A program made the translations under genes and the position numbers. The notes below the pieces were generated by a model. It worked only from the letters and a program-made list of their open reading frames with translations, had not been told where the DNA came from and ran no database searches. This document shows, in pieces, positions 18,527 to 64,000 of a stretch of 64,000 nt of DNA; position 1 is the stretch's first letter, and every line of letters starts with the position of its first letter. Origin of the DNA: Boletus sp. NGJ (taxonomy: Eukaryota; Basidiomycota; Agaricomycetes; Boletales; Boletaceae); contig JAGTXK010000005.1 of NCBI GenBank assembly GCA_019096195.1, positions 124,001-188,000 on the forward strand. Direction: 5' to 3'.

Positions 18527-21500
18527 TCAAATCTTTGGCAAAAACCCACTCTCCCTCCACGCCCTAACCCACTTGGCCACCAACCCCTCCCCTACCACTG
18601 GCGCCTCCCTCAACCACCTACTCACCCCCACCGTCCCTCTTTACATCCAGCTCCGCCCTCGTCTGCGTCCTCTCCGCCGCCCCCGCACCATACTTGCCCT
18701 CGTAAAACGCCAACAACTTGCGGCTCGGGTTCCGCCGTTCGTCAGGGTCGCTCGCGCGGAGCACTTTGAGCCAGTCTTGTCGTGGGACGGGTCTAAAGTC
18801 GAGTTGCGCAGCGTGGAGCGCGGTGAGGACCGTGGACCAGGAGACGCGGGTTGGATGGAGGACGTGGTAGACGGGACAGTCGCCGGGCGTGTGCGTGGGC
18901 ATGGCTGTGGCTGTGGAGGGCTGCTGGGTGTGTGGGTAGGTCAACGAGCTCGACGATGCTCTTGGCCGCATAGTCGACGGGGAGCCACGAGACTTGTTCG
19001 TCCAGTTCGGGAAGGACACCGATCGTGTCTGCGCACTGTCGTATGCCAATTAGCCGTCGAGTCACAAGGCAAGAAACGACTGACTTTGAAGATGAGCGAA
19101 ATCCCCTCGGACTCGTTCCAGATCCCATTCGTCGTATCGCCCACCATCTGACCAATACCTGTGAAAAGAACACCGTGAGGACGTTCACATCTCATCTCTT
19201 GCATTTCAGGGCTGCGTACGTAGAACCGCTGTGTGCATCGGCGTCGTACGCGCCGCAATCTGGCACAGTTTCTCCGTGACCCATTTGGATTGTGCACTTG
19301 AAAAATAAGGAAAGAAAACATCAGAGTCTATCTAATACACGGGCGAGAAAAAATAAAAAGGGGGGGACATACTATCCTATCTCCTGCGCGACCGCCGGAT
19401 TATCCGTCACTACCTCGGGCACCAATCCCGGGCCAGGCCAATTCGCCACCGCGCTGATGGACGAGGCAAAGAAGAACTTGGCTGGCTGGGAGCGTGGCGA
19501 GGAGAGCGCGAGGCGCATCAAATTCACCGCTCCGCGAATGTGCGATTCGAAACTGTATCACGGGGCGGGGGGTGGGGTGAGCAGGGTGCACGTTTGCGTC
19601 ACACGTACCTGGAGATGCCCAAGTTGAAATTAACTGCCCAGGCGCTCTAGAGCAGGACGAGCCAAAAGTGAGGAAAAGACACGAGAGGTATGAACGCGCA
19701 CGTACGTGAATGATCACCGTCGCTCGGTTTGCAATCTCGCGGTAGCGTTCGTCGTCGAGTCCTAACTGGACCGCGGGCAAGTCTGCCGCGAGCGCCACGA
19801 CGCGTTCGTTCACACCCAGGAACCGTGTTAACAGCTTTCGCGTCTTCATCGACGCCGCGAGCCGGTCCTCCGCGTCTGCGTCGTTCTTGGCACGGCAGAG
19901 GCAATAAACGGTCTCAACAGCCGGGTCGGCGAGAAGCTCGTCGAGGACGTAGGATCCAAGAGAGCCCTGTAGCGCCTGTCAAAGACCATCTAAACGAGAG
20001 AAACGTCAGTGGCAGCGACGGTGTACACCCCATCGGGTCAATCGTGCAAGACGAGCCACGTCATACGCACCACTTTTCCAGACTCGGTGCTGGTGACATG
20101 GCCTTTCGCCCCGTGCGTTGTGTGGATGAAGTGGCTGTATTTGTCGACCAACTCGAGCATGAGCTCTTGCGGGCTGGTCTGCAAGGCGTCGGTGTCTTTT
20201 CCCGAGGAGAGCAACACGATGAGCTTTGCCAGCCTTGCCAAGGGAGAAGAGTGAGTGACTATCACGGTCGAGCTAGACGCCCACGCACTTGGTGACGGAA
20301 GGATGTTCAAAGACGGCATTGACAGATAGCTTCTTTCCACCCAGATCAATCTCCTAATAAAAAGAAAGCTCTCATCAATCCTTAATCACACCAAAATAAA
20401 TGTTTAAGAAAGGACACAAAAATGCACGCACCCTCTGAACAGCATTTCGAATCCGCGTCGACTGCAGCGAATCAAGCCCGAAATCAAACAAGTCCGTATC
20501 ATCTTCAAGCCCATCCATAGGCCGCTCGATCGTCCTCTCAATCACCTCTCTTAGGATCTCCCTCGCCTCCCCCTCGCCTTCCACGCGCGTCTTCCCCTCC
20601 GACCCCACCTCCCCCTCTATGTGCCTATATACTTCCTCGATCATTTTCTCAAACTCTTTATACACTTTTGGCCTCAAAGTACTCCCCTTATCTGCCCTCG
20701 GAATCTGCGTCCCGTATGGCAGAAACACGAGCGCCTCTGTCGAGAGCTGGGAATGCGACGGCGCGTCGGCGTTGGCAAGGGCAACGACCGAGGCTACGCG
20801 GCGGGTGAATTCGTCGTACGAGCAGCGCTGGGCAGCTTCGGTGGGGAGGATTAGGGCGCCGATTTGGGTGCGGCCGGTGCCAAAGACGATGGCGTCAGCG
20901 ATGTAGGGGGAGGAACGCAGGGTGAGTTCGATCGGGACCGGGTTGGTTTTTTCGCCGTTGACCTGTTGTATTTTGAGGGAACGAGTTATGGGAGTTTGGA
21001 AAGGAGGGGACGTACCATGATGAGGGTATCGTCTATCCGGCCAATGTACTTGTAGACATCGGGTATTGTAGGATGTTTGATGAAGAGGTCTTTGGTCGCA
21101 TAAGAGCCGTCTGGCTGGTTGGACATCACCTACTAGACGCTCAGCATGCGGGATGAAGAGAGTGCATGCACAGGACCTGCCTTGGTATGCCATCCGTCCA
21201 AGACGTAGAGCTCATAGGTGTCACTGCCACGAGGCTCGAAGCGCATATATTCGTGTACGCCGGTGTGGTTGTACGGTCCCCTTGCGCGAACCCAGTTCCA
21301 TGCCTTGTCGGTGTCGAAATCGCGGAAGGATGTCATGAGCTGACCCATCTCCGCTGAGCAGCATTCCATAAGACCCCAGGGGAAAAGTACCAAGGGAAAG
21401 GACGCACTGAGCCCATAATGACCCACCAAAGGAACGCCTTCCGAGACGAGAAAGTCACCCAGCTCGTCTGGACAAGCGCTCCCGCCAAACATGACCAATT

Positions 21501-22540
21501 TGAGACGTCTGAGGACTTGAAGGCCCTCTGGGGTCTCTGCGAGCAACTTGAGAGCAAAAGGGACTCCATAAAGGGCCTGTATGTCTGGTGCTTGCGAAAG
21601 CAGCTTGATAATATTTGCAGACGTGAGCGGAATGGACCCAGTCGGGAACAGATAAAGCGGTTTCGCAGCATACCACGCTCGGAGCATGTTCGAGTGACCG
21701 TGACCCTGCGAGACAAATTCAAGTTCAGCACGGAAAGAAGAGGATGAAAGGAACCGGGCAAACGTGGTACAAGGGCAACGTCGTGAGACTGGTGAGGTCA
21801 AAGTGCATCTTGCAGTTCCCGACGGCGGCCTTGTTGGTCGCGATGATGGGCTTTGGGAAGCCGGTGGAACCACTCGAGTGGATGATGGTGACGGGGAGGA
21901 GGAACTCGACGTCGGGGCTGAGGGGCGGGTCCCAGTGGGTCTTGTCAGGGTGTGTGGCGCGTGCATCGGGACTGAATACCTCGGAGGAAGGTTGGTGGAC
22001 GATTGATACCGACGACGGGTCAGGGAGATGAGCAAGTGCGGCAATGGCAGAAGAGTGCATTGCGTCCTGTACGATGATGTGGGAGGCATTGGTGACGGTC
22101 AAGAGGTGTGCAATCGCAGGCGGTGAGTTGTTTGGAGAGAGGAAGAGGACGCCTGGGAAATGGAGTGAGGAACTGATTGCACGAGAGAGCGGAGACGGAC
22201 GAACAGTAGCCCATGCGATACAAGGCCAACTCTGTGACGACATAGTCGATGTTGCTCACACCCAACAGGCCAACGGTGAGCCTGCTCGTTGCATCGCCCT
22301 TTGCGCGACCGGGGAGGACTCCAGTGTCTCTGAGATGGTTGGCGAAGAGAGAGGCGGCCGCATCGAGCTCAGTGGTGGTGTACTTTGTGTACTGGGATAC
22401 GGGTGATCTGGGGGAGTGTTAGGGTCGAGGAGGGAGAGACGTACATTGAAGCTTTTGTCGGGGATGCCAAGAATTTGGAGATTTGGGTGGTCGCGGACTC
22501 TGTCTGCGATGAGCTGGTTCAAGGAGAGAATGTCTGGCAT
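18527..22540 (-). CDS. Adenylate-forming reductase (NRPS-like, adenylation-thiolation-reductase)
   Basis: Activates a carboxylic acid as AMP ester, loads it on a phosphopantetheine arm, and releases it reductively as aldehyde with NADPH. The A domain shows HSSGSTGFPKPI, HYGLTEMG (across an intron) and YIGRIDDTLIMVNGEKTNP. The thiolation site is LFDFGLDSLQS. The terminal reductase shows GSLGSYVLDELL and the catalytic-type GYSQSKWVTEK. The C-terminus ends LVAKWVRAW...GFLPKI. Start ATG at 22540 (MPDILSLNQLI). There are about a dozen introns, one of GC-AG type (21130-21180). Two places cannot be read in a single frame with ordinary introns, around 19965 and 18625; both lie at short C/G runs. They may be sequence errors, real lesions, or a very short intron. 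The substrate is unknown, and no biosynthetic cluster surrounds it. Confidence 0.87.
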
Positions 22541-25192: not shown

Positions 25193-26535
25193 TGGGTGCA
25201 TCTGTTTTTTTGTCCCCCTTTTTTTCGTTTTCCTCTATTATTATTATTATTTACTTGTGGATGTTAGATGCATATTTTTTTGTTGTACATACAAATCCTG
25301 CACACGTCTCTCGAAGGAAGACTTCCTCAAATCTACGCGGTCCGAGCTCGAGACGGCCCAGGAACAGCTTTCCAAGCAAAAAATCCTCAATGAGACTTTC
25401 GAGACGGACCCTGCATTCGATAACCATTCCGCACAACCCTCAAGCGCGAGTGGAACGATGGGCGTCGACGACGCGGAGCACGCCGATTCTGTTCACTTCG
25501 TCTGCAGATATATCGATATATCGATAACCGCTGAACCGGAAGAGGCACGTGTTTTCGTTTTCGCTGATCCTTTGTGCTCACGGTGTAGGCAACATACGCG
25601 ACTGGGTTACATCCCTTGGTCGTCTGGATCGTTTGGAGTGGGATGTTTCGGGGGAGGGGGCTGGGTGGGTATGTCGGGGTACTGCGACCGTTTTAAATAG
25701 GTCTGCCATCGTGCTGGCTGGTTTCTGCCAGTGGTACCTCGGATCCGATGGTCAGAGCGTGTCATACCCCATTGCTCGTATCTCATCTGCGTTACCCACT
25801 TGACTGTAAATGGTACGGTGACCAGCAACCACCTTGTGATCAGCTTAATGCAACGGTAGTTTCTTCCCCGGCTGTTTTGTCGATGATATTTTTCCATTGT
25901 CGTCGCAGTTGAAACATGCGCGTGTGATCCGCCACTCCGGCGTAAAGGTAGTATGTATACATATTCCTGACCAGTGGCTGGGTTGGGCTTTGCCACTCGA
26001 GATGAGAATATAAGGAGAAGCGATCATCCTAGCTGAATTGGACGCTTGCATGATGTGAGTCGAAACGACTGCAGGCCACCAGCCTTGCAGGACGTAGGCT
26101 CGGAACATGCAGGCTCAGCTACGCCCAAGAACGTGCCGCCAATATCGCGCACGACAGGGAACAGGGAATTCCTCGCGCCGCTTGAAGTGGAGAAATTGAA
26201 GCTTCCTAGTACGATCGAACCCAAGAAGAAACGTCGTGAGTCGCCAGGAAGAGTCAGAGGAAACACAAACGCTCTATTGTCAATGAGTCTGATATCCCTA
26301 AATTATGTTAGATCGCACAAGCTCTATTATGATATGACACCTTGACCTTGACATGGTGTCGGTAGAAATAAGTGTTGAACGTTCGGCTAGCAGCTCTATG
26401 CAAAGTTGACACACCACGGGATCTGTCGGAAGTCGGAAGTGGGTACCAGACTGCTTTCTGATTCCCACACTTCGTTTCCTTCACAACCACTGACTTTTGA
26501 TTCTACTTCTCTTCGCGTACACGCTCGGATCCAGA
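25193..26535. other. Intergenic region, possible gene remnants
   Basis: Begins with the T-rich 3' UTR of the coiled-coil gene, including an (ATT)n tract near 25238-25252. A short plus-strand reading at about 25315-25450 (EDFLKSTRSELETAQEQLSK) has heptad character but no start, splice partner or continuation. It may be a relic. Minus-strand readings between 25850 and 26260 are unsupported. The last 200 bp are the probable promoter of the G-domain gene. Confidence 0.45.
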
Positions 26536-29500
26536 ATGTCGACAGAAAACACACGGGATTCAAGCTTCGAAAACATCCGAGAGAAATTTGGACGTTTCAG
26601 GGTCCTCATCGTGGGGCGGGCGAACGCTGGCAAGACGACCATTCTCCGGGGGATCTGTAACTCTACAGAAAACCCAGAGATCTACGACGGCGATGGGAAC
26701 AAGGTATGGTCCCAGTCGATGTATGCTGTCGTGGATTATGCTAACCCGCGCGACCAGATCGACCCGTCACAAGTCGAGGGATCAACGGGGGTGAGTATTG
26801 CTGCACGTCACGCATCGACACGGTGCAAGTAACGATTAACCTTGTTTAGCGCGGAATGCACAACACCGAGGATGAACTGATCTTCAGGAGCAACGATAAA
26901 CTCGTCTTTCATGATTCATCAGGTTTCGAAGCTGGTCGCGAAGATGAATTCCTGAATATGAAGGAATTTATTGCGGATCGTGCGAAGACTACTTTTCTCA
27001 AGAAGCGCATTCACGCGATATGGTAACGGGCGAAGCTGTATTACAGTACATTAATCAATTTACTCCCCTGGACAGGTACTGCATCCCAATGGATAAGCTT
27101 GATCGAGCAGTCCAACGGGCTGAGGAAAAGTTCTTTGAAGAATGTGACCCTGGAAATGGTGAGCTGATCTTCTTCATGTTTTTATTTCGAGCTCATGATC
27201 TGGTCAGTTCCTGTTGTAGTTTTATTCACCAAATTTGATGCACTACTTCCTGTAGCACTGGGGAAACTAGAACCTGCTGATCGGCGGTTACCATTACAGG
27301 AACGGCTGTCAAAGGCCAAGGCACTCATTGATGGGATTTTTAGTAGAGCTGATGTATGGGGTCGTCTTTCTCAAATGAAGCATGCCCCAAAATCAAGTGT
27401 CCAAATTGGAGGTTTGTGTCATGTTTTCTCATCAATATGCTCTCATGTACACTAGGCATGCATAAGTCCAATGAAGGATGCAAGAGTCTACTGGAAAGCA
27501 CTGCAAATGTCCTGGATGAAAGAGCTTTGCAAATGCTACTAGTTTCTGCCCAGGAAACAAACATAGGGCTTTGTATCAAATATGCAACTCAAGAGTAAGT
27601 CATGTATTCTAAAAACACTTATCTTTGATAGCCTGACACTTTCATTTGAACACAGTTTGATCTCTCGAGTAGATGAAGTATACAACCACACAATTCCCAT
27701 AAGCCATATGGAAAAAATCAAACTACATGAACTTGCAAAATGGTTTCCACATGTTCGGGTAAGGCATTATAGTTTTACATGTGATTTCAGTAGATGTGGC
27801 CTTATTGTTGATTCAATATTGATCACAGTTGGTGAGTTGTGAATTCTTGCATGTTTGTGATAGGGATTATATGTAGTGATCATTCCATGACCACCACCTT
27901 CTATTCTGGCAACGATAGTCTGAGTGCATTGTGACATATTGGTGACAGTGATCATGCTGATGGTCCCACCTCCATCTTTCTCCCTGTGCTGGCAATCATA
28001 GTTGGTGGGTCATGCACTGTACTGTTGGTGATGGTAATCATGCTGATCCCATGTCCATTTTTCATCTTGCTTTGGCAATTGTAGTGTGTGAGTTGTTCAT
28101 TGTGGTATGTTGGTGACAGTGATCATGCTGATGATCCCATGTCTATTCTTTATTCTGCTCTGACAATAACAGGGGGTGAGTTGTGCATTGTGGCATATTG
28201 GTGACAGTGATCATGCTGATGATCCCATATTCATTCTTCATCCTGCTTGGAAATCATAGGTTGTAAGTTGTGCATTGTGATGACAGTGGTCTTGCTAACA
28301 ATCCAATGTCCATTCTTCATCCTTCTCTGGAAATTACAGGAAGTGAGTTACATATTGGGTGTGTTGATAATATCATACTGATGATCTCATGTCCATTCTT
28401 CATCTTACTCTGACAATCAAAGTTTGTGAGTTGTACATTGTGATTTGTTGGTGACAGTGGTCATGCTGATAATTTCATGTCCATTTTTCATTCTGCTCTG
28501 TAAATTGTAGTGTGTGAGTTGGTGACAGTGTTTATGCTGATTATCTCATACCCATTCTTCATCCTGCTTTGGCAATTACAGGAAGTGAGTTGTGCATTAT
28601 AGCATGTTGGTCACAGTGACTTCACTAATAATTGTGCATTCTTTATTCTACTCTGGAAATCATAGGTTGTGAGTTTTGCATTGTGGCAGTTGGTGATAGT
28701 AACATACTGATACCCTGCCCATTCTTCATTCTGTTCTGGCAATTGTAGTGTGTGAGTTGTGCATTCTGGCATGTTGGTGATAGTGATCACACTAATGGTC
28801 CCATGTCTATTCTTCATCCTGCTCTGATCATAGTTGGTGAGTTGTACATTATGGCATGTTGGTAACAGTGATTATCCTAATAATCCAATGTCCATTCTTC
28901 ATATTGCTCTGGCAATCACAGCAGGTGAGTGTATCAATACATTGGTGACAATGATAACACTGATGATTTCATGTCCCTTCTTCATCCTACTCTGGAATCA
29001 TAGTTTGTGAGTTGTGCATTGTGAGAGTTGGTGACAAAGATTATGCTAATGATCCCATGCCCATTCTTCATGCTGCCCTGGAAATAAAGAGAGTGAGTTG
29101 TGCATTATGGCATGTTGAGAATAGTGATTATCCTAATAATCTCATATCCATTCTTCATCTTGCTTTGGCAATCATAGGAGGTGAGTTGTGCATTGAGGCA
29201 TGTTGGTGATAGTGATCACACTAATGATCCTATGTCCATAATTGTTCATTCTTCTCTGACAATTATAGTTTGTGAGTTGTGCATTGTGGCAAATTGGTAT
29301 CATGCTGATGATCCCATACCTATTCTTCATCCTGCTCTGGCAATCATAGGAGGTGAGTTGTGCATTGTGGCATGTGGCATGTGGTGTGTTGCTAACAGCA
29401 ATTGTATTGATGATCCAACGTCCATTCTTCATCCTGCTCTGGAAATCACAGGAGGTGAGTTGTCATAGTGGCATGTTGGTGACAGTGATCACACTAATGA

Positions 29501-30706
29501 TTCCATGTCTGTTCCTCATCTGACTTTGGCAACCATAGTTTGTAAGTAGTGGCATGTTTGTAACAGTGATCATGCTAATGATCTCATGTCCATTCCTTAT
29601 TTTGCCCTGGAAATGATAGAGAGTGAGTTGTCTATTTTAACATGGCAGTGGTAGTCATGCTGATAATTTTATCCTCATACTTCATGTCTGGAAATCATAG
29701 TTTGTAAGTCATGCATTATGGTATGTTGGTGACAGTAATCATGTTAATGATTTCAAATTCTTCATTCTACTGTGATAACCATAGTCTGTGAGTTATACAT
29801 GTAGCTTATAACATAATATGCATGCTAATACACCCATTTTTACCTTTCTTTTTATTATTGATGAATAGCATGTAAGTTGTTACTATTCATTAAGCCTTGC
29901 TAATAAATCCTATAGCTGGTATGTCTTGCAAATATCTACCATCTATTTGTTCTTATATATTTCAATAGGATGTGAGTTTGCTATATGAGGTATATTTCAT
30001 GACAACTTATTTGCATTATAATTCCAGCAGGTAATATTTTTGTATCTTATGATTTTTATTTATTTATAAAGTTTCAGGAGGTTGTTTTTATCACAAACTA
30101 TTCTATCACTTATTTATTGAATGGTTTTATCACTTCTAGCTACTTGATGACAGGCATGTATGTAACATTTTATTATTATTCCTTAGTTCATGCTAATATT
30201 TTATTAAATAGAGTCATTTGGGTACAACTGAAGCTCAGATGTCCAAACACAACTGGGTAAGCCTACTTCTATTTTAATTTTTGGAAGTAAACCTGATTAC
30301 AATAAAAGTTCAACTATGCTACATGGAAACAAATCCTTCAAGCCAGTGTTGGTGAGTTTCAATTATTATCTTATATCTAATAGCGAATACTACTAATTGC
30401 CCACAATATACTGTAGATATAGTTCTGATATTAGAGCATTCTTTCTACCTTTCCCAGCAAAATGGCCATAGACCATTTTTCACTGCTGCCCAGCTGTACA
30501 AAGCATCAAATATACCTGCTAGGGTTAGGAAGGCCCTGGAGGAAGTTGTCAAGCAATATGGCAGATTGTCTAACAGGGAAAAAGTGGATATGGTGTCAAA
30601 TATCATTCTTCAAAATCACATGGGTGGGTGGTTTGATATATCTTTCAAGATTTTATTCACTAACAATTTTATTTCAGAAATCCCAGCATATGCAAGAAGA
30701 CAATAG
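26536..30706 (+). CDS. P-loop G-domain protein with hyper-intronic 3' half
   Basis: N-terminal GTPase domain of a type common in mushroom fungi. Visible: VLIVGRANAGKTTILRGI (P-loop), VFHDSSGFEAG (G3, DxxG), VVVLFTKFDAL (G4, TKxD), LLVSAQ (G5-like). Exons, all in frame: 26536-26703, 26758-26790, 26850-27023, 27076-27158, 27208-27411, 27456-27594 and 27656-27758, ending FPHVR in phase 0. Then comes an array of intron-like units with 3-nt gaps (27759-30139). Phase-0 exons follow at 30140-30157 (LLDDRH), 30212-30256 (SHLGTTEAQMSKHNW) and about 30309-30347. Exon 30458-30623 has KALEEVVKQYGRLSNREK. The last, 30678-30706, ends at TAG. One junction (30348 or 30352) is uncertain. Whether the 3' exons belong to this gene or to a second one is unproven. 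CpG is normal at the 5' end and nearly absent from about 27.8 kb. Confidence 0.7.
27759..30139 (+). repeat. Tandem array of intron-like units separated by exactly 3 nt
   Basis: About 29 head-to-tail units. Each begins GTGAGT, GTAAGT or similar, contains a CTGAT/CTAAT branch-like motif and a pyrimidine-rich CCATTCTTCATCCTGCTC section, and ends CATAG, ACAG or GTAG. Period is mostly 80-91 bp up to about 29787; the last five units are non-repetitive and only 44-59 nt. The 3-nt gaps lie, for example, at 27829, 28002, 28085, 28173, 28260, 28340, 28423, 28511, 28582, 28666, 28749, 28834, 28922, 29004, 29090, 29178, 29269, 29350, 29452, 29539, 29620, 29701, 29785, 29869, 29916, 29969, 30028 and 30078 (start positions). 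One junction, at 27919, has lost its donor GT. Almost free of CpG. Either a chain of introns with one-codon exons or an intronic minisatellite. Confidence 0.9.
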
Positions 30707-31772
30707 TCTTGCACCAGGTCACAACCCCAAGTCATTCCAATGGTGAGGATTGAAGAAATGTTTGAAGGAAGATTGGTTTGAAAGCAGAAGATTATCCTGA
30801 TTGAATGTGTTTCATCTTGTGACTATCTATGAATAGTGAAATGTATTCTGGACCTGTGGAGTTGTCCAGCCTGAAGCCTCAAATGAGCAGTCTATGAAAA
30901 ATTCATTCATGGATCCTAGTGAGAGTGATTGCATCAATATAAACACTGCCTTTTTATTCTCATAAGAAGAGACACCTGAAGTATCTATGTCAGAATTTCC
31001 CTGAACTAAAGGTGCCCAACAGGGACAGTTAGCTCATCAGTGACTTCCATATAAATTGCCTGATCATCTTCACAAGGTCCATCATGTCCATGAGCCAGGA
31101 GTAGATAGTCCCTTGAGGAACTTTTATGATGCGACTCACAAGTACTCAGGCTGATACCCATCTATCAATATATGTATCAAGATGAATTGTGGATGGGGGG
31201 AGGTCATCAACAATGCACTTGTCTTCAAAGTGTTGGGTGACATTAATGATATCACTACAGAAGGAGATTTGCTGGCTGAATGGACATTCTGAGCGAATCT
31301 TGACGGTTTCTGTACCCAGGATATGGGCACTGTTCAACTTTATAAGGAACAACAGATCTGGTCCCTGTACAGTGTATAACCTGGGACATTTGAACTACTA
31401 GAAAATAGAAACCTGTCAGTTGGGTACAAAGAGGAAGCATGTAGTCATCATTTTCCGTGGGTCAAGCTCTCACCATGAAGGGTCTATTGTTGTTGAGTGG
31501 ATAGCCAAACTTTGGAGATGTTTGGAGACATGAGGTATTTGATCCATGCTGTCTGCCAGTGTGTGGGCACTGGGGATGTTTCAACCACCAAGCATCGACC
31601 TCCATGAGCTCAAAAAGGTGCTCGATGATTAAGAGGCATCGAGATCGTCGAGAACGCGGAAGAGAACGTGACCAGTCGGGGGACCGCTGAGCGTACTAAA
31701 GGTACGCTCCGTTTCAGTTCATAAACCTAGACCAGTTGAAACCTCCGTGTACACAGTTCAAGAAGATCCCAG
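30707..31772. other. CpG-depleted, decayed sequence
   Basis: Continues the low-CpG, TG/CA-rich composition of the array until about 31,600, where CpG-rich sequence resumes abruptly. A minus-strand reading at 31146-31352 (contains TIHLDTYIDRWVSA) looks protein-like, but its continuations are interrupted. It is probably a relic of a gene or mobile sequence that I cannot name. No terminal repeats were found. Confidence 0.5.
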
Positions 31773-33050
31773 ATGGACGAACTTAAAGTCGATTCTTTCA
31801 AGGGGATGCTCAAAGATACGTCTCTCTTCCTCGTCGCCGGACTCGCGTGGTATAGGCGCACTCACGTCACCCTCCGACGACGAACCACCTGTTCCATCCC
31901 ACATTACCTACCAACACGAAATCGACCACCTCACAAAATGTTCCAAAGTCACCGAGTCAGCCTTTCCAAACGTCCACACAGTCCTTGCAGAAGCCTCCTT
32001 TAAGCAGTCGTGGAACACGTGATAATGTCTGAGGCGAACGCATCGTTGACTGCCAAAGTCAACGCGCTCAAGGCCGAGGTTGCGCGATTCAAGGGGGAGA
32101 ATGTTGAGTTGAAAAGGGAAAATGGCACATTGAAGGGTACGAAGAGGAAAGCAGATATCTTGGAGTACAAGGTGGGTGTGCACACTGGAGTGGGATGAGG
32201 TGCTGGTGAGGGCGCTGAGATAAATGGACGAGTTGATCGCCCAAAATGTCGCGTAGAAGGAGAAGGAAATGTATGCGACGTATGCGGGATGTGATAAACG
32301 GTGAGTGGCTTGTCGGTGGTCCTGTCGAGTCGGGACTCATTGCCATCACTTTCGTTCATCGTGCGTCACAGTGAACAGGTCTTGACGCGCCAAGTCACGG
32401 TTTACAAGTCGAACGAGACTAACCAAGCGCGTCTCTTGGATGTCAGCTTGCACGTTGATCAAGACGACAAGCTGTCTCAGATATGGTCCTCGCCGATCTC
32501 GAACGGTCGGATAGTAGGGTCGCGGCCGTGGAAGGGAGGAACGTAGGTCCCCTCTCCTAGTGCTTAATGTCTATATCCTTAACATAAGATCATCGTGTAC
32601 GACGTATCAGGAGGAGTTGCGTGCCGAGAGCGAAGCACTGCGCTGTGCGTTTTGCTGTCTCTAGGTTGTATAGATCGAAGGTGATCAGCACAATACCGAA
32701 CCTGCACTAATCGCGCTCCTCGGCTCTCGATTCAACCAACGCAGATCTAACAGCCTAGCGTCTTTTTACCCAATCACAACTGTCCGTTGCACAAACCCAG
32801 CTCGCAAGACACAACGAAGTGGGCACGAAGCGAGATGGGAGGGGAAAAGGCAGGGCTACAAGCGCAAGTGGGCACACTCAAGCAGAAGGTTGCGACTATG
32901 CCGATTGCGATGAAATCAAGCAGGAGCTCGAGATCACGAAGATGAATTGGTGTATTCTCACAATACATGGTCCCTTGCCATACATGCGGTATATATTTGA
33001 TATTTTATCTCGCGCAGTCTACTTTCTCTCGATGTCTCGTTTCCCCAGCA
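31773..33050 (+). pseudogene. Doubtful coiled-coil gene or remnant
   Basis: An ATG at 31773 opens MDELKVDSFKGMLKDTSLFL. The natural-looking continuation (SPSDDEPPVPSHITYQHEID) is in another frame. After it come a coiled-coil stretch (LTAKVNALKAEVARFKGEN, about 32043-32180) and, after a gap, LQAQVGTLKQKVATMPIAM (about 32848). Composition is CpG-rich like functional genes. Frames change more often than plausible introns explain, so it may be a broken gene or one with several short introns. No family recognised. Confidence 0.3.
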
Positions 33051-62785: not shown

Positions 62786-64000
62786 TCAACAGTCATCTTC
62801 TTTTCGCCTGTTGCCCACCTCCGGGTTATCTTCAGGCAAAGTTTGGCCGAGATTCCTTCCACCTTTGCACACGAAAGTTTCAAGACCGGGGTAAATCGGG
62901 AGGGTTGCCGTGGCGTAAGTCCGAAGGAATGCTTTCAACGGTTGTTTGGACCGATCACGACCTGTCTGAAACGTGGTGACGCACGCATGAGGAATGGATT
63001 GAACCGGGATACCGGTTCTTCCAGTGATATTGTCTTGATTGTGCTCCCACCACTGATCATCCAGCGTGTCACGGTGGGTCACGACGAGGGTTATTGGAGC
63101 ACGACCGCCGAAGAAGTCGTTGATCAGCCGGTAGAGACTACCAAGCGAAGCGAAGATTCCGCCCATGCTTGTACAGAGAAGAATAACGTTAATGCCACTA
63201 GGGAGGCTTCGCAAGACAGCATGTGCTTGTTCGTAAGGCGAAAGAGGACTGACTCCTTCCCCGTGGGCAAGGCGGAATCCCATCATGTCCCATAATCGGA
63301 TCCGCCTTTCACCGATGGACATCTGGGGTCGCCTAGTGCAAGTTTCGTCCCCGGGTGCTCGTACAATTGGCTTCTCGGCAAGGAGATTGATGGCCGAGCT
63401 CTTTCCGCGCCCGACAGCACCGAATAGCACGACATTGATATCAAGTGCAGGACTTCGATCATGTGTCAGGAATTTGCAAGAAAATCATTACATGAACTTA
63501 CTTTGGTAGCAGCAGTTGCTCTAGGCAGTCTCTGGAAAACGTCAATGCTTCTTGGGCTGATGGCCGATTTGTCGGTCGTCGTGGAGACCAACATCGCTCG
63601 ATGAAGTCCCACACACCGTCCGGAATACTATCAGGCCATACTGGGCGTGGTGGATTCTGGAATTCCTTCAATTTACAGTCGAACTCCATTCCGTTTGGCC
63701 AAGGGTATTTCCCCGAAAGGATCTGCAATTCCAATTCAGGCGCTGAGGAAAGAAGCTGAGTAATCACTTACGAAGAGGATGATGCTACCGAGAGAGTAAA
63801 TATCGCTGTTGAGCGTAGCTTCAATCTTGACGTCCGGGTACAAGTCAGGATATTGTAGCTCTGGTGCAGCCCACATCGCTGCCCCGGGACGAATGGAATC
63901 GGTCCAGAGGTATGTCAATTGATCATACTGGCTAAGAGTTTGAGACAACCCGAAGTCGGTGAGACGCGCGTTATGTTCGCCGTCAATCAGAATATTTCCC
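62786..64000 (-). CDS. Protein kinase - P-loop GTPase fusion, 5' partial
   Basis: Read from the right edge: GNILIDGEHNARLTDFGLS (end of catalytic loop and DFG), MWAAPELQYPDLYPDVKIEA (APE), NSDIYSLGSIILF, ILSGKYPWPNGMEF, and WDFIERCWSPRRPTNRPSAQ, i.e. the C-lobe of a tyrosine-kinase-like Ser/Thr kinase common in Agaricomycetes. A phase-2 intron then joins LLLP to PALDINVVLFGAVGRGKSSA, a P-loop (GxxxxGKS). It is followed by LWDMMGF (DxxG) and ITLVVTHRDTL (G4-like THRD), an AIG1/IRG-like GTPase. Both domains are in one frame across exons 63901ff, 63498-63720 and 62786-63430. The kinase N-lobe lies beyond the window. The C-terminal end may be longer if a further intron exists near 62800. Role unknown; such receptor-like fusions suggest signalling or self/non-self response (inference). 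Confidence 0.82.

Follow-up and report, generated by a model that had tools for sequence, protein, structure and literature searches.

Introduction

Codon-sized exons are known from the NACHT-ankyrin genes of Tuber melanosporum, in which alternatively spliced mini-exons of '3 bp' have been described (PMC9815663, PMC4986451); the wording of PMC4986451 for these genes is 'multiple codon-sized microexons'. These and the other papers are cited here for the individual passages that concern such exons and introns. In the present study, we describe a locus of Boletus sp. NGJ in which small introns follow one another head to tail with exactly 3 nt between them. The locus lies in a stretch of 64,000 nt (assembly GCA_019096195.1, contig JAGTXK010000005.1, positions 124,001 to 188,000), which is referred to as the window and within which all positions are counted. 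The 3' part of the gene concerned, which encodes a P-loop G domain, is probably made of 28 single-codon exons between individually spliced small spliceosomal introns.

The primary truffle study (Iotti et al. 2012) is said to liken the T. melanosporum genes, in its abstract, to the micro-exon genes of schistosomes. No title among the literature matches listed was on chains of one-codon exons. The initial annotation of this DNA knew of no described fungal locus like it, a statement that the codon-sized microexons of the T. melanosporum NACHT-ankyrin genes overturn (PMC9815663, PMC4986451). Exons of a single nucleotide are spliced in the plant genes APC11 and VPS55, with conserved GTRAGT donors reported for VPS55 (PMC8831610), and a 1-nt exon has been reported in CYP621A of Fusarium (PMC12940212). 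One 'megacycle' gene of aphids contains more than 100 microexons (PMC9168663).

Results

Small introns are chained at intervals of exactly one codon

A total of 27 non-overlapping AG-NNN-GTR junctions was found on the plus strand from 27,827 to 30,030, within a chain stretch of 27,759-30,139, and a 28th junction, AG-GAG-GTTGTT with the weak donor GTTGTT, was located at 30,076-30,086. The interval 27,700-30,300 holds 30 AGNNNGTR strings, and the three that lie inside units (28517, 28688, and 29026) were excluded. All 28 junctions have a 3-nt gap in phase 0. The head-to-tail units at exact 3-nt gaps noticed in the initial annotation were thus recovered by the count, with one dead junction (27,917) added as a correction. 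Its observation of phase 0 on both flanks was also borne out, since phase 0 holds for the end of the exon upstream of the chain as well as for both exons that follow it, at 30,140 and 30,212. The codons of the chain are LLCGVEFCEVCLQFREFEEFRFSHLDQ plus E, a stop-free string that leads in phase 0 into these two exons. The chain introns are 44-99 nt in size, a fused one of 170 nt apart, and GTRAGT is present in 24 of the 29 chain donors.

The spacing was compared with that in the rest of the window and in shuffled sequence. In 27,759-30,140 (plus strand), a GTRAGT hexamer stood exactly 3 nt after an AG in 24 of 24 cases, compared with 3 of 53 elsewhere in the window (both strands), where the spacing spectrum was flat. 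When the donor was set to GTRNG and the introns to 40-120 nt, the longest gap-3 chain in the region comprised 25 junctions, and the longest chain elsewhere in the window, for any of 9 gap sizes, comprised 3. On the minus strand of the window, no gap-3 chain beyond one junction was found. YAGNNNGTR was observed 26 times in 27,759-30,139, compared with a mean of 2.8 and a maximum of 10 in 2000 dinucleotide shuffles. A period of 256 nt was found by Tandem Repeats Finder (TRF). A mirror order of the codons was insignificant (P 0.70 and 0.74), and an autocorrelation of the codons at lag 3 (5 matches versus 1.7 expected, p 0.02) is left unclaimed, as it was one of 13 lags. As the array is repetitive, it is informative to ask which portions of the repeat have been preserved.

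The core introns are copies of one unit

The core array consists of 24 homologous intron units on the plus strand (27,827-29,868), whose single introns are 68-99 nt long, mostly about 80-85 nt. The 24 profile matches of the first scan are true by construction, and a leave-one-out profile was used for that reason. Each of the 24 units then outscored all 100 of its own shuffles, and the weakest, at 29,783, reached 11.0 bits versus a shuffle maximum of 6.3. The mean pairwise identity of the aligned units was 71% over 77 interior columns, and the similarity between units was nearly flat with distance (0.72 at a separation of 1 and 0.70 at 10). No copy of the unit was found beyond the array in the 64-kb window.

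At 27913-27925 of the window, one junction is dead: AG-TCT is followed by GAGTG, not by GTGAGTTG, and two units are consequently fused into an intron of 170 nt. The unit that precedes this junction is the only core unit without YTRAY at the usual place, and it carries an AG just upstream of that place. This atypical unit, a sample of one, fits relaxed constraint.

Both ends of the chain are built differently. The first chain intron (27,759-27,828, plus strand, 70 nt) has no detectable similarity to the unit, its score against the unit profile being not above that of shuffles (P 0.15). The same was true of the five introns of the 3' edge (P 0.06, 0.96, 0.40, 0.60, and 0.99), which occupy 29,872-30,139 of the plus strand with sizes of 44, 50, 56, 47, and 59 nt and have four one-codon exons between them. 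In 29,880-30,139, YAGNNNGTR occurs 3 times versus 0.16 expected, a count reached in 0 of 2000 shuffles. Such a survival of the junctions alone, with edge introns that keep the spacing, would not be expected for a repeat that had merely diverged within one long intron. The presence of other introns at the chain ends, and the near independence of the codons from intron similarity, are points beyond the initial annotation.

Splice signals are preserved amid variable interiors

Among ungapped rows of the alignment, the acceptor AG, the donor GT, and donor positions +5/+6 were invariant in 6 of 6 columns, compared with 5 of 77 interior columns; two of these five are the T and A of a branch-like CTRAY. 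The Fisher probability of this difference, calculated by hand and with the relatedness of the units ignored, was near 1e-6, and the units are to be regarded as non-independent samples. A random column-set test (0/200,000) is trivially passed when only 5 interior columns are invariant, and the plain count was used. The gaps in the splice-site columns result from the dead donor at 27,917 and from a misplacement by MAFFT at 28,509, where the sequence itself is GTGAGT; MAFFT also misplaced the donor of two rows in alignment A1. Indel events numbered 31, and 0 of them fell within AG-NNN.

In 23 of the 24 core units, a YTRAY branch-like motif lay 38-45 nt upstream of the acceptor, and no AG was found between the branch motif and the acceptor in any of the 24. 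When the 175 observed substitutions were relocated to same-base sites, 8.1 AGs were expected in that zone, and 0 was reached in 1 of 5000 trials. The expectation was 8.0 when only variable columns were used (0 reached in 0/5000) and 2.9 under the stricter control of a column-allele shuffle (p 0.003). With a GT donor, YTRAY at a usable distance, an AG acceptor, and an AG-free 3' zone, the core units appear to be U2-type spliceosomal introns whose signals would be maintained by selection.

The introns were also folded. No pair of a conserved hairpin across the introns was returned by RNAalifold, single folds of 11 introns gave z from -0.92 to 0.94, and halves-shuffled folds of 22 introns gave a mean z of -0.21. 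A possible imperfect end-to-end hairpin per intron (28005-29868) showed double changes in 10 pairs versus 6.4 (11/500 shuffles), or in 14 versus 9.5 when counted by cells (32/500 shuffles), and was unsupported by folding energies or symmetry tests.

The single codons are the most variable part of the unit

The three codon columns had pairwise identities of 0.39, 0.28, and 0.36, compared with an interior mean of 0.71, and were the least conserved stretch of the unit; the lowest adjacent interior triplet reached 0.56, although a few single interior columns came close to the codons (0.38-0.42), and the lowest three averaged 0.39. The p-distance of the codons was 2.2 times that of the intron 5' half (1.85-2.61 in random draws of 14 units), and the Jukes-Cantor distances were 1.58 and 0.39, respectively. 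Two codons of the 28 begin with GT, both being GTT.

The codons were hardly linked to the similarity of whole introns (permutation tests, p 0.20-0.35). Of the 253 junction pairs, 31 had a flank identity of at least 0.85; the codon-base identity in these was 0.33 (4 pairs) and 0.47 (27 pairs), compared with 0.34 when unlinked. Identical codon triplets nevertheless numbered 23 pairs versus 11.0 expected (p 0.003). Codon identity also tracked the final 12 nt of the intron before the codon (two measures, p 0.002 and 0.014, to be read cautiously because this window was picked after 11 sliding windows for each of two neighbouring codons), and the 12 pairs identical over these 12 nt had a codon-base identity of 0.58. 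The recurrence of triplets and the link to the preceding intron end point to duplication of the codon together with the intron end, and the idea that the codons are fully decoupled from the introns is weakened by this linkage. Neighbouring codons repeated each other no more often than by chance (lag 1, 2 matches versus 1.8 expected). Diversifying selection, or a choice of residue that is unconstrained while splicing and homogenisation hold the introns, would both fit the variability of the codons.

Layout of the gene and its neighbourhood

The 5' part of the gene (26,536-27,758, plus strand) consists of six ordinary exons, at 26536-26790, 26850-27022, 27076-27158, 27220-27411, 27456-27594, and 27656-27758. 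These exons are open and are joined in frame via GT-AG sites, with introns of 59, 53, 61, 44, and 61 nt between them, and their product of 315 aa includes the P-loop G domain and ends in KWFPHVR. When searched against Pfam-A, the 315-aa part gave weak matches to RsgA_GTPase and MMR_HSR1, both below the curated cut-offs, and further matches below cut-off to Arf, AAA_23, and Roc. NACHT was not matched in the 315-aa part (Pfam-A, E up to 1). Ankyrin was likewise not matched in a scan that covered this part and two pieces of the tentative exons beginning at 30,309, but neither the 28-codon string nor the 30,140 and 30,212 exons. G domains of the GRANAGKTTIL type form a family that is common in agaricomycetes.

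Along the plus strand, the chain begins with the mini-exon TTG (27829-27831), which is followed by the 170-nt intron of two fused units (27832-28001; the donor of its middle junction, AG-TCT at 27917, is lost). The next mini-exons are TTG (28002-28004), TGT (28085-28087), GGG (28173-28175), GTT (28260-28262), GAA (28340-28342), TTT (28423-28425), TGT (28511-28513), GAA (28582-28584), GTT (28666-28668), TGT (28749-28751), TTG (28834-28836), CAG (28922-28924), TTT (29004-29006), AGA (29090-29092), GAG (29178-29180), TTT (29269-29271), GAG (29350-29352), GAG (29452-29454), TTT (29539-29541), AGA (29620-29622), TTT (29701-29703), TCT (29785-29787), and CAT (29869-29871). They are followed by CTG (29916-29918), GAT (29969-29971), CAG (30028-30030), and GAG (30078-30080), the last being the least certain of the 28.

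The chain leads into exons of 18 nt (30140-30157) and 45 nt (30212-30256), both on the plus strand. Past 30,256 the gene model is tentative, with last exons on the same strand at 30309-30347, 30458-30623, and from 30678 to the end of an in-frame TAG at 30706. In the pieces scanned of these last exons, no Pfam family was above cut-off; the sole match of the C-terminal pieces, Pesticin, had an E of 0.056-0.07, far under the cut-off, and was taken as chance. The chain contributes 84 nt to a tentative coding sequence of about 1.33 kb. The 3' half of the gene and the sequence beyond it lie in an AT-rich island (27600-31500) with a GC content of 0.28-0.44 in 300-base steps, and outside 26,001-32,000 the GC content is 0.49-0.58 in 2-kb steps.

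The window is eukaryotic and carries small GT-AG introns. A second P-loop GTPase-like open reading frame (ORF) is located on the minus strand (62786-63484), with a match to MMR_HSR1 just above cut-off. Open frames at 19400-22255 of the minus strand matched NAD_binding_4 (above cut-off) and AMP-binding (below cut-off), suggesting a reductase gene of the nonribosomal peptide synthetase-like (NRPS-like) kind. The matches of twenty ORFs of the window to Pfam included the PEX18/PEX21 C-terminal and ERT1/acuK PAS domains, which speak for fungal DNA.

Discussion

How the chain would be read

The chain introns (44-99 nt) are close in size to the five upstream introns of the gene (44-61 nt), which favours individual splicing. 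The small introns are probably recognised individually, by intron definition, so that each splice would extend the upstream exon by one codon. With small introns recognised as units, a 3-nt exon would not need to be defined by itself. Furthermore, as all chain exons are 3 nt long and all chain introns are in phase 0, the joining of any donor to any downstream acceptor keeps the frame, and skipping of exons would yield variants, all in frame, of a segment that is at most 28 residues long. The core array may have grown by copying of an intron-plus-codon unit with heavy local recombination, after which the codons would have diverged more than the introns.

By analogy with the NOD-like receptor (NLR) genes of truffles, a plausible use would be a variable segment downstream of the P-loop NTPase domain. 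It is a rather doubtful proposition that a second fungal P-loop NTPase family evolved a one-codon-exon diversifier independently of the truffle NLR genes. If it did, the repeated intron would be a scaffold and the lone intervening codon a hypervariable position, and combinatorial skipping together with reshuffling of units would produce a changeable segment, possibly for nonself recognition.

Several results weigh against a chain of one-codon exons. The composition of the codons resembles that of the intron 5' half and is unlike that of the other exons of the gene: C is found at codon position 3 in 0 of 28 (P 0.0007 when compared with all 315 gene codons and 0.0099 with the last 125) and at position 2 in 1 (P 0.017-0.025), and A is scarce at position 1. 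Being unlike the codons of the gene, the string is not ordinary coding sequence, and its lack of stop codons is insignificant (P 0.06-0.26). The dead junction means that a loss can be tolerated; the donor at the end of the chain is weak; and the branch motifs of the edge introns are weaker, four of the five having no YTRAY by the pattern used, in a scan that took the last two introns one base off. Of the 12 pattern matches to the 315-aa protein in viral_contigs, none was a relative, and both viral_contigs and genome_contigs were without a match (0) when scanned with a degenerate DNA form of the P-loop motif. Moreover, the units were cut at AG-NNN-GTR junctions, and the invariance of AG and GT is therefore partly a matter of construction. 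This last objection is answered by the single double-length unit, which means that only one junction was lost; besides, the invariance of donor +5/+6, the branch motif, and the AG-free zone is independent of how the units were cut. As regards the junction pattern outside the window, one viral contig (L001) with a match had scattered AGNNNGTRAG sites, 8 versus 3.8 expected, and was ascribed to chance, as 6 of 200 shuffles reached 8.

The initial annotation had offered two models, one-codon exons and a minisatellite of a duplicated intron. The former fits clearly better with the sequence features, and the latter, as an array removed whole, is disfavoured by them. If the stretch 27,759-30,139 were a minisatellite in one 2.4-kb intron, the internal sites would be relics and the codons would be absent from the mRNA. 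Such an array would account for tandem, homologous units, for a similarity that falls only from 0.72 to 0.70 with distance, as in a homogenised array, for the non-coding-like composition of the 3-nt bases, and for the dead junction. It is nevertheless unlikely, because the splice-site columns are invariant amid neighbours that vary, the zone from branch to acceptor is without AG, and unrelated 3' edge introns keep the one-codon spacing; the five upstream introns of the gene, at only 44-61 nt, also speak against it. Recursive splicing depends on an exon that begins with GT, from which a 5' site is restored once the first splice has taken place (PMC6224609). As only 2 of the 28 codons begin in this way, recursive splicing cannot erase the codons one after another. 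We therefore favour one-codon exons over whole removal with reasonable confidence, on sequence alone.

The chain may also be spliced loosely, with frequent skipping, so that most mRNAs would carry some of the codons and the chain would be tolerated rather than used (constructive neutral evolution). This overlaps with the reading as one-codon exons and is a serious possibility, although we do not consider it probable: every skip stays in frame, the codons are the most variable bases, and the fused 170-nt intron indicates that loss of one codon is tolerated, but the strong donors and the AG-free zone suggest that selection keeps the splicing of each unit efficient. We regard it as quite improbable that an invading intron, inserted like an introner in steps of 3 nt, divided an ancestral coding exon into its codons, which would make the codons old and the introns new. 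The near absence of a link between codons and intron similarity (0.33 and 0.47 versus 0.34; permutation p 0.20-0.35) would agree with it. However, the codon composition mismatches that of the gene, the triplet recurrence (23 versus 11.0) and the link to the preceding 12 nt point to duplication of codon plus intron end, and the unit has no copy elsewhere in the window; to our knowledge, no introner has a fixed 3-nt insertion step. Equally improbable is a decaying, unexpressed gene, whose pattern would reflect past function only. The dead junction, the AT-rich 3' half, and the weak last donor are consistent with decay; however, the reading frame is open in all six upstream exons and continuous across their GT-AG sites, and 27 of 29 junctions (the dead one counted) keep an AG acceptor and a GTR donor.

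Comparison with known systems

If one-codon exons are true of this locus, chains of codon-sized exons are not peculiar to one truffle gene family. The locus would also preserve visible traces of the way in which a chain may grow, with an intron unit being duplicated along with its frame-neutral 3-nt exon, and it would put intron definition to a severe natural test, since 29 adjacent introns would be spliced with only 3 nt from acceptor to donor. It may also serve as a test case for gene annotation, which tends to miss such exons.

The internal exons of the bicycle genes of aphids are longer than one codon. Like the exons of this chain, they are many, unusually small, uniform in phase, and rapidly evolving; unlike these, they are almost all in phase 2, and the passages on them make no mention of an array of homologous introns (PMC9168663). 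The micro-exon genes of Schistosoma also have very small symmetrical exons, in-frame alternative splicing, and fast evolution (PMC4350168). They differ in that each exon of the present chain is exactly one codon and the introns are tandem copies, in a fungus and not in an animal, and most of the coding region is not in small symmetric exons here, where these make up 84 nt of about 1.33 kb. The tiny exons of APC11, VPS55, and CYP621A are isolated, whereas those of the Boletus gene form a chain.

Introners, introner-like elements, and symmetrical stwintrons share with this locus the multiplication of similar functional introns, and in Hypoxylon the bordering exon bases share no similarity (PMC9860276, PMC4457414, PMC8469720). 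As described in those passages, however, they are spread over many genes, whereas the copies in the window stand head to tail within one gene; in Zymoseptoria, <1% of the recent gains of single introns are attributed to tandem duplication inside a gene (PMC4457414). Terminal inverted repeats and target-site duplications, as in introners of the DNA-transposon type, were not found in the units (consensus symmetry P 0.07, mean z 0.6 over 22 units; neighbouring codons alike at the chance rate).

The closest likeness is that to the nank genes of Tuber. In the truffle genes as in this one, which is read at the sequence level with 27 canonical junctions and 1 weak junction, a single P-loop NTPase gene of a fungus would hold dozens of exons of 3 bp that all keep the frame. 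In the truffle passages, alternative splicing of the 3-bp exons is said to diversify the C-terminal part, whereas the present chain is known from the sequence of one gene. Unlike the nank genes, the Boletus gene gave weak G-domain matches and neither NACHT nor ankyrin in the parts scanned, and it has repeated introns with hypervariable codons, while the passages on the truffle genes are silent on repeated introns. Chains of codon-sized exons were thus already known in an ascomycete, and the present locus is a putative variant of them in another P-loop family.

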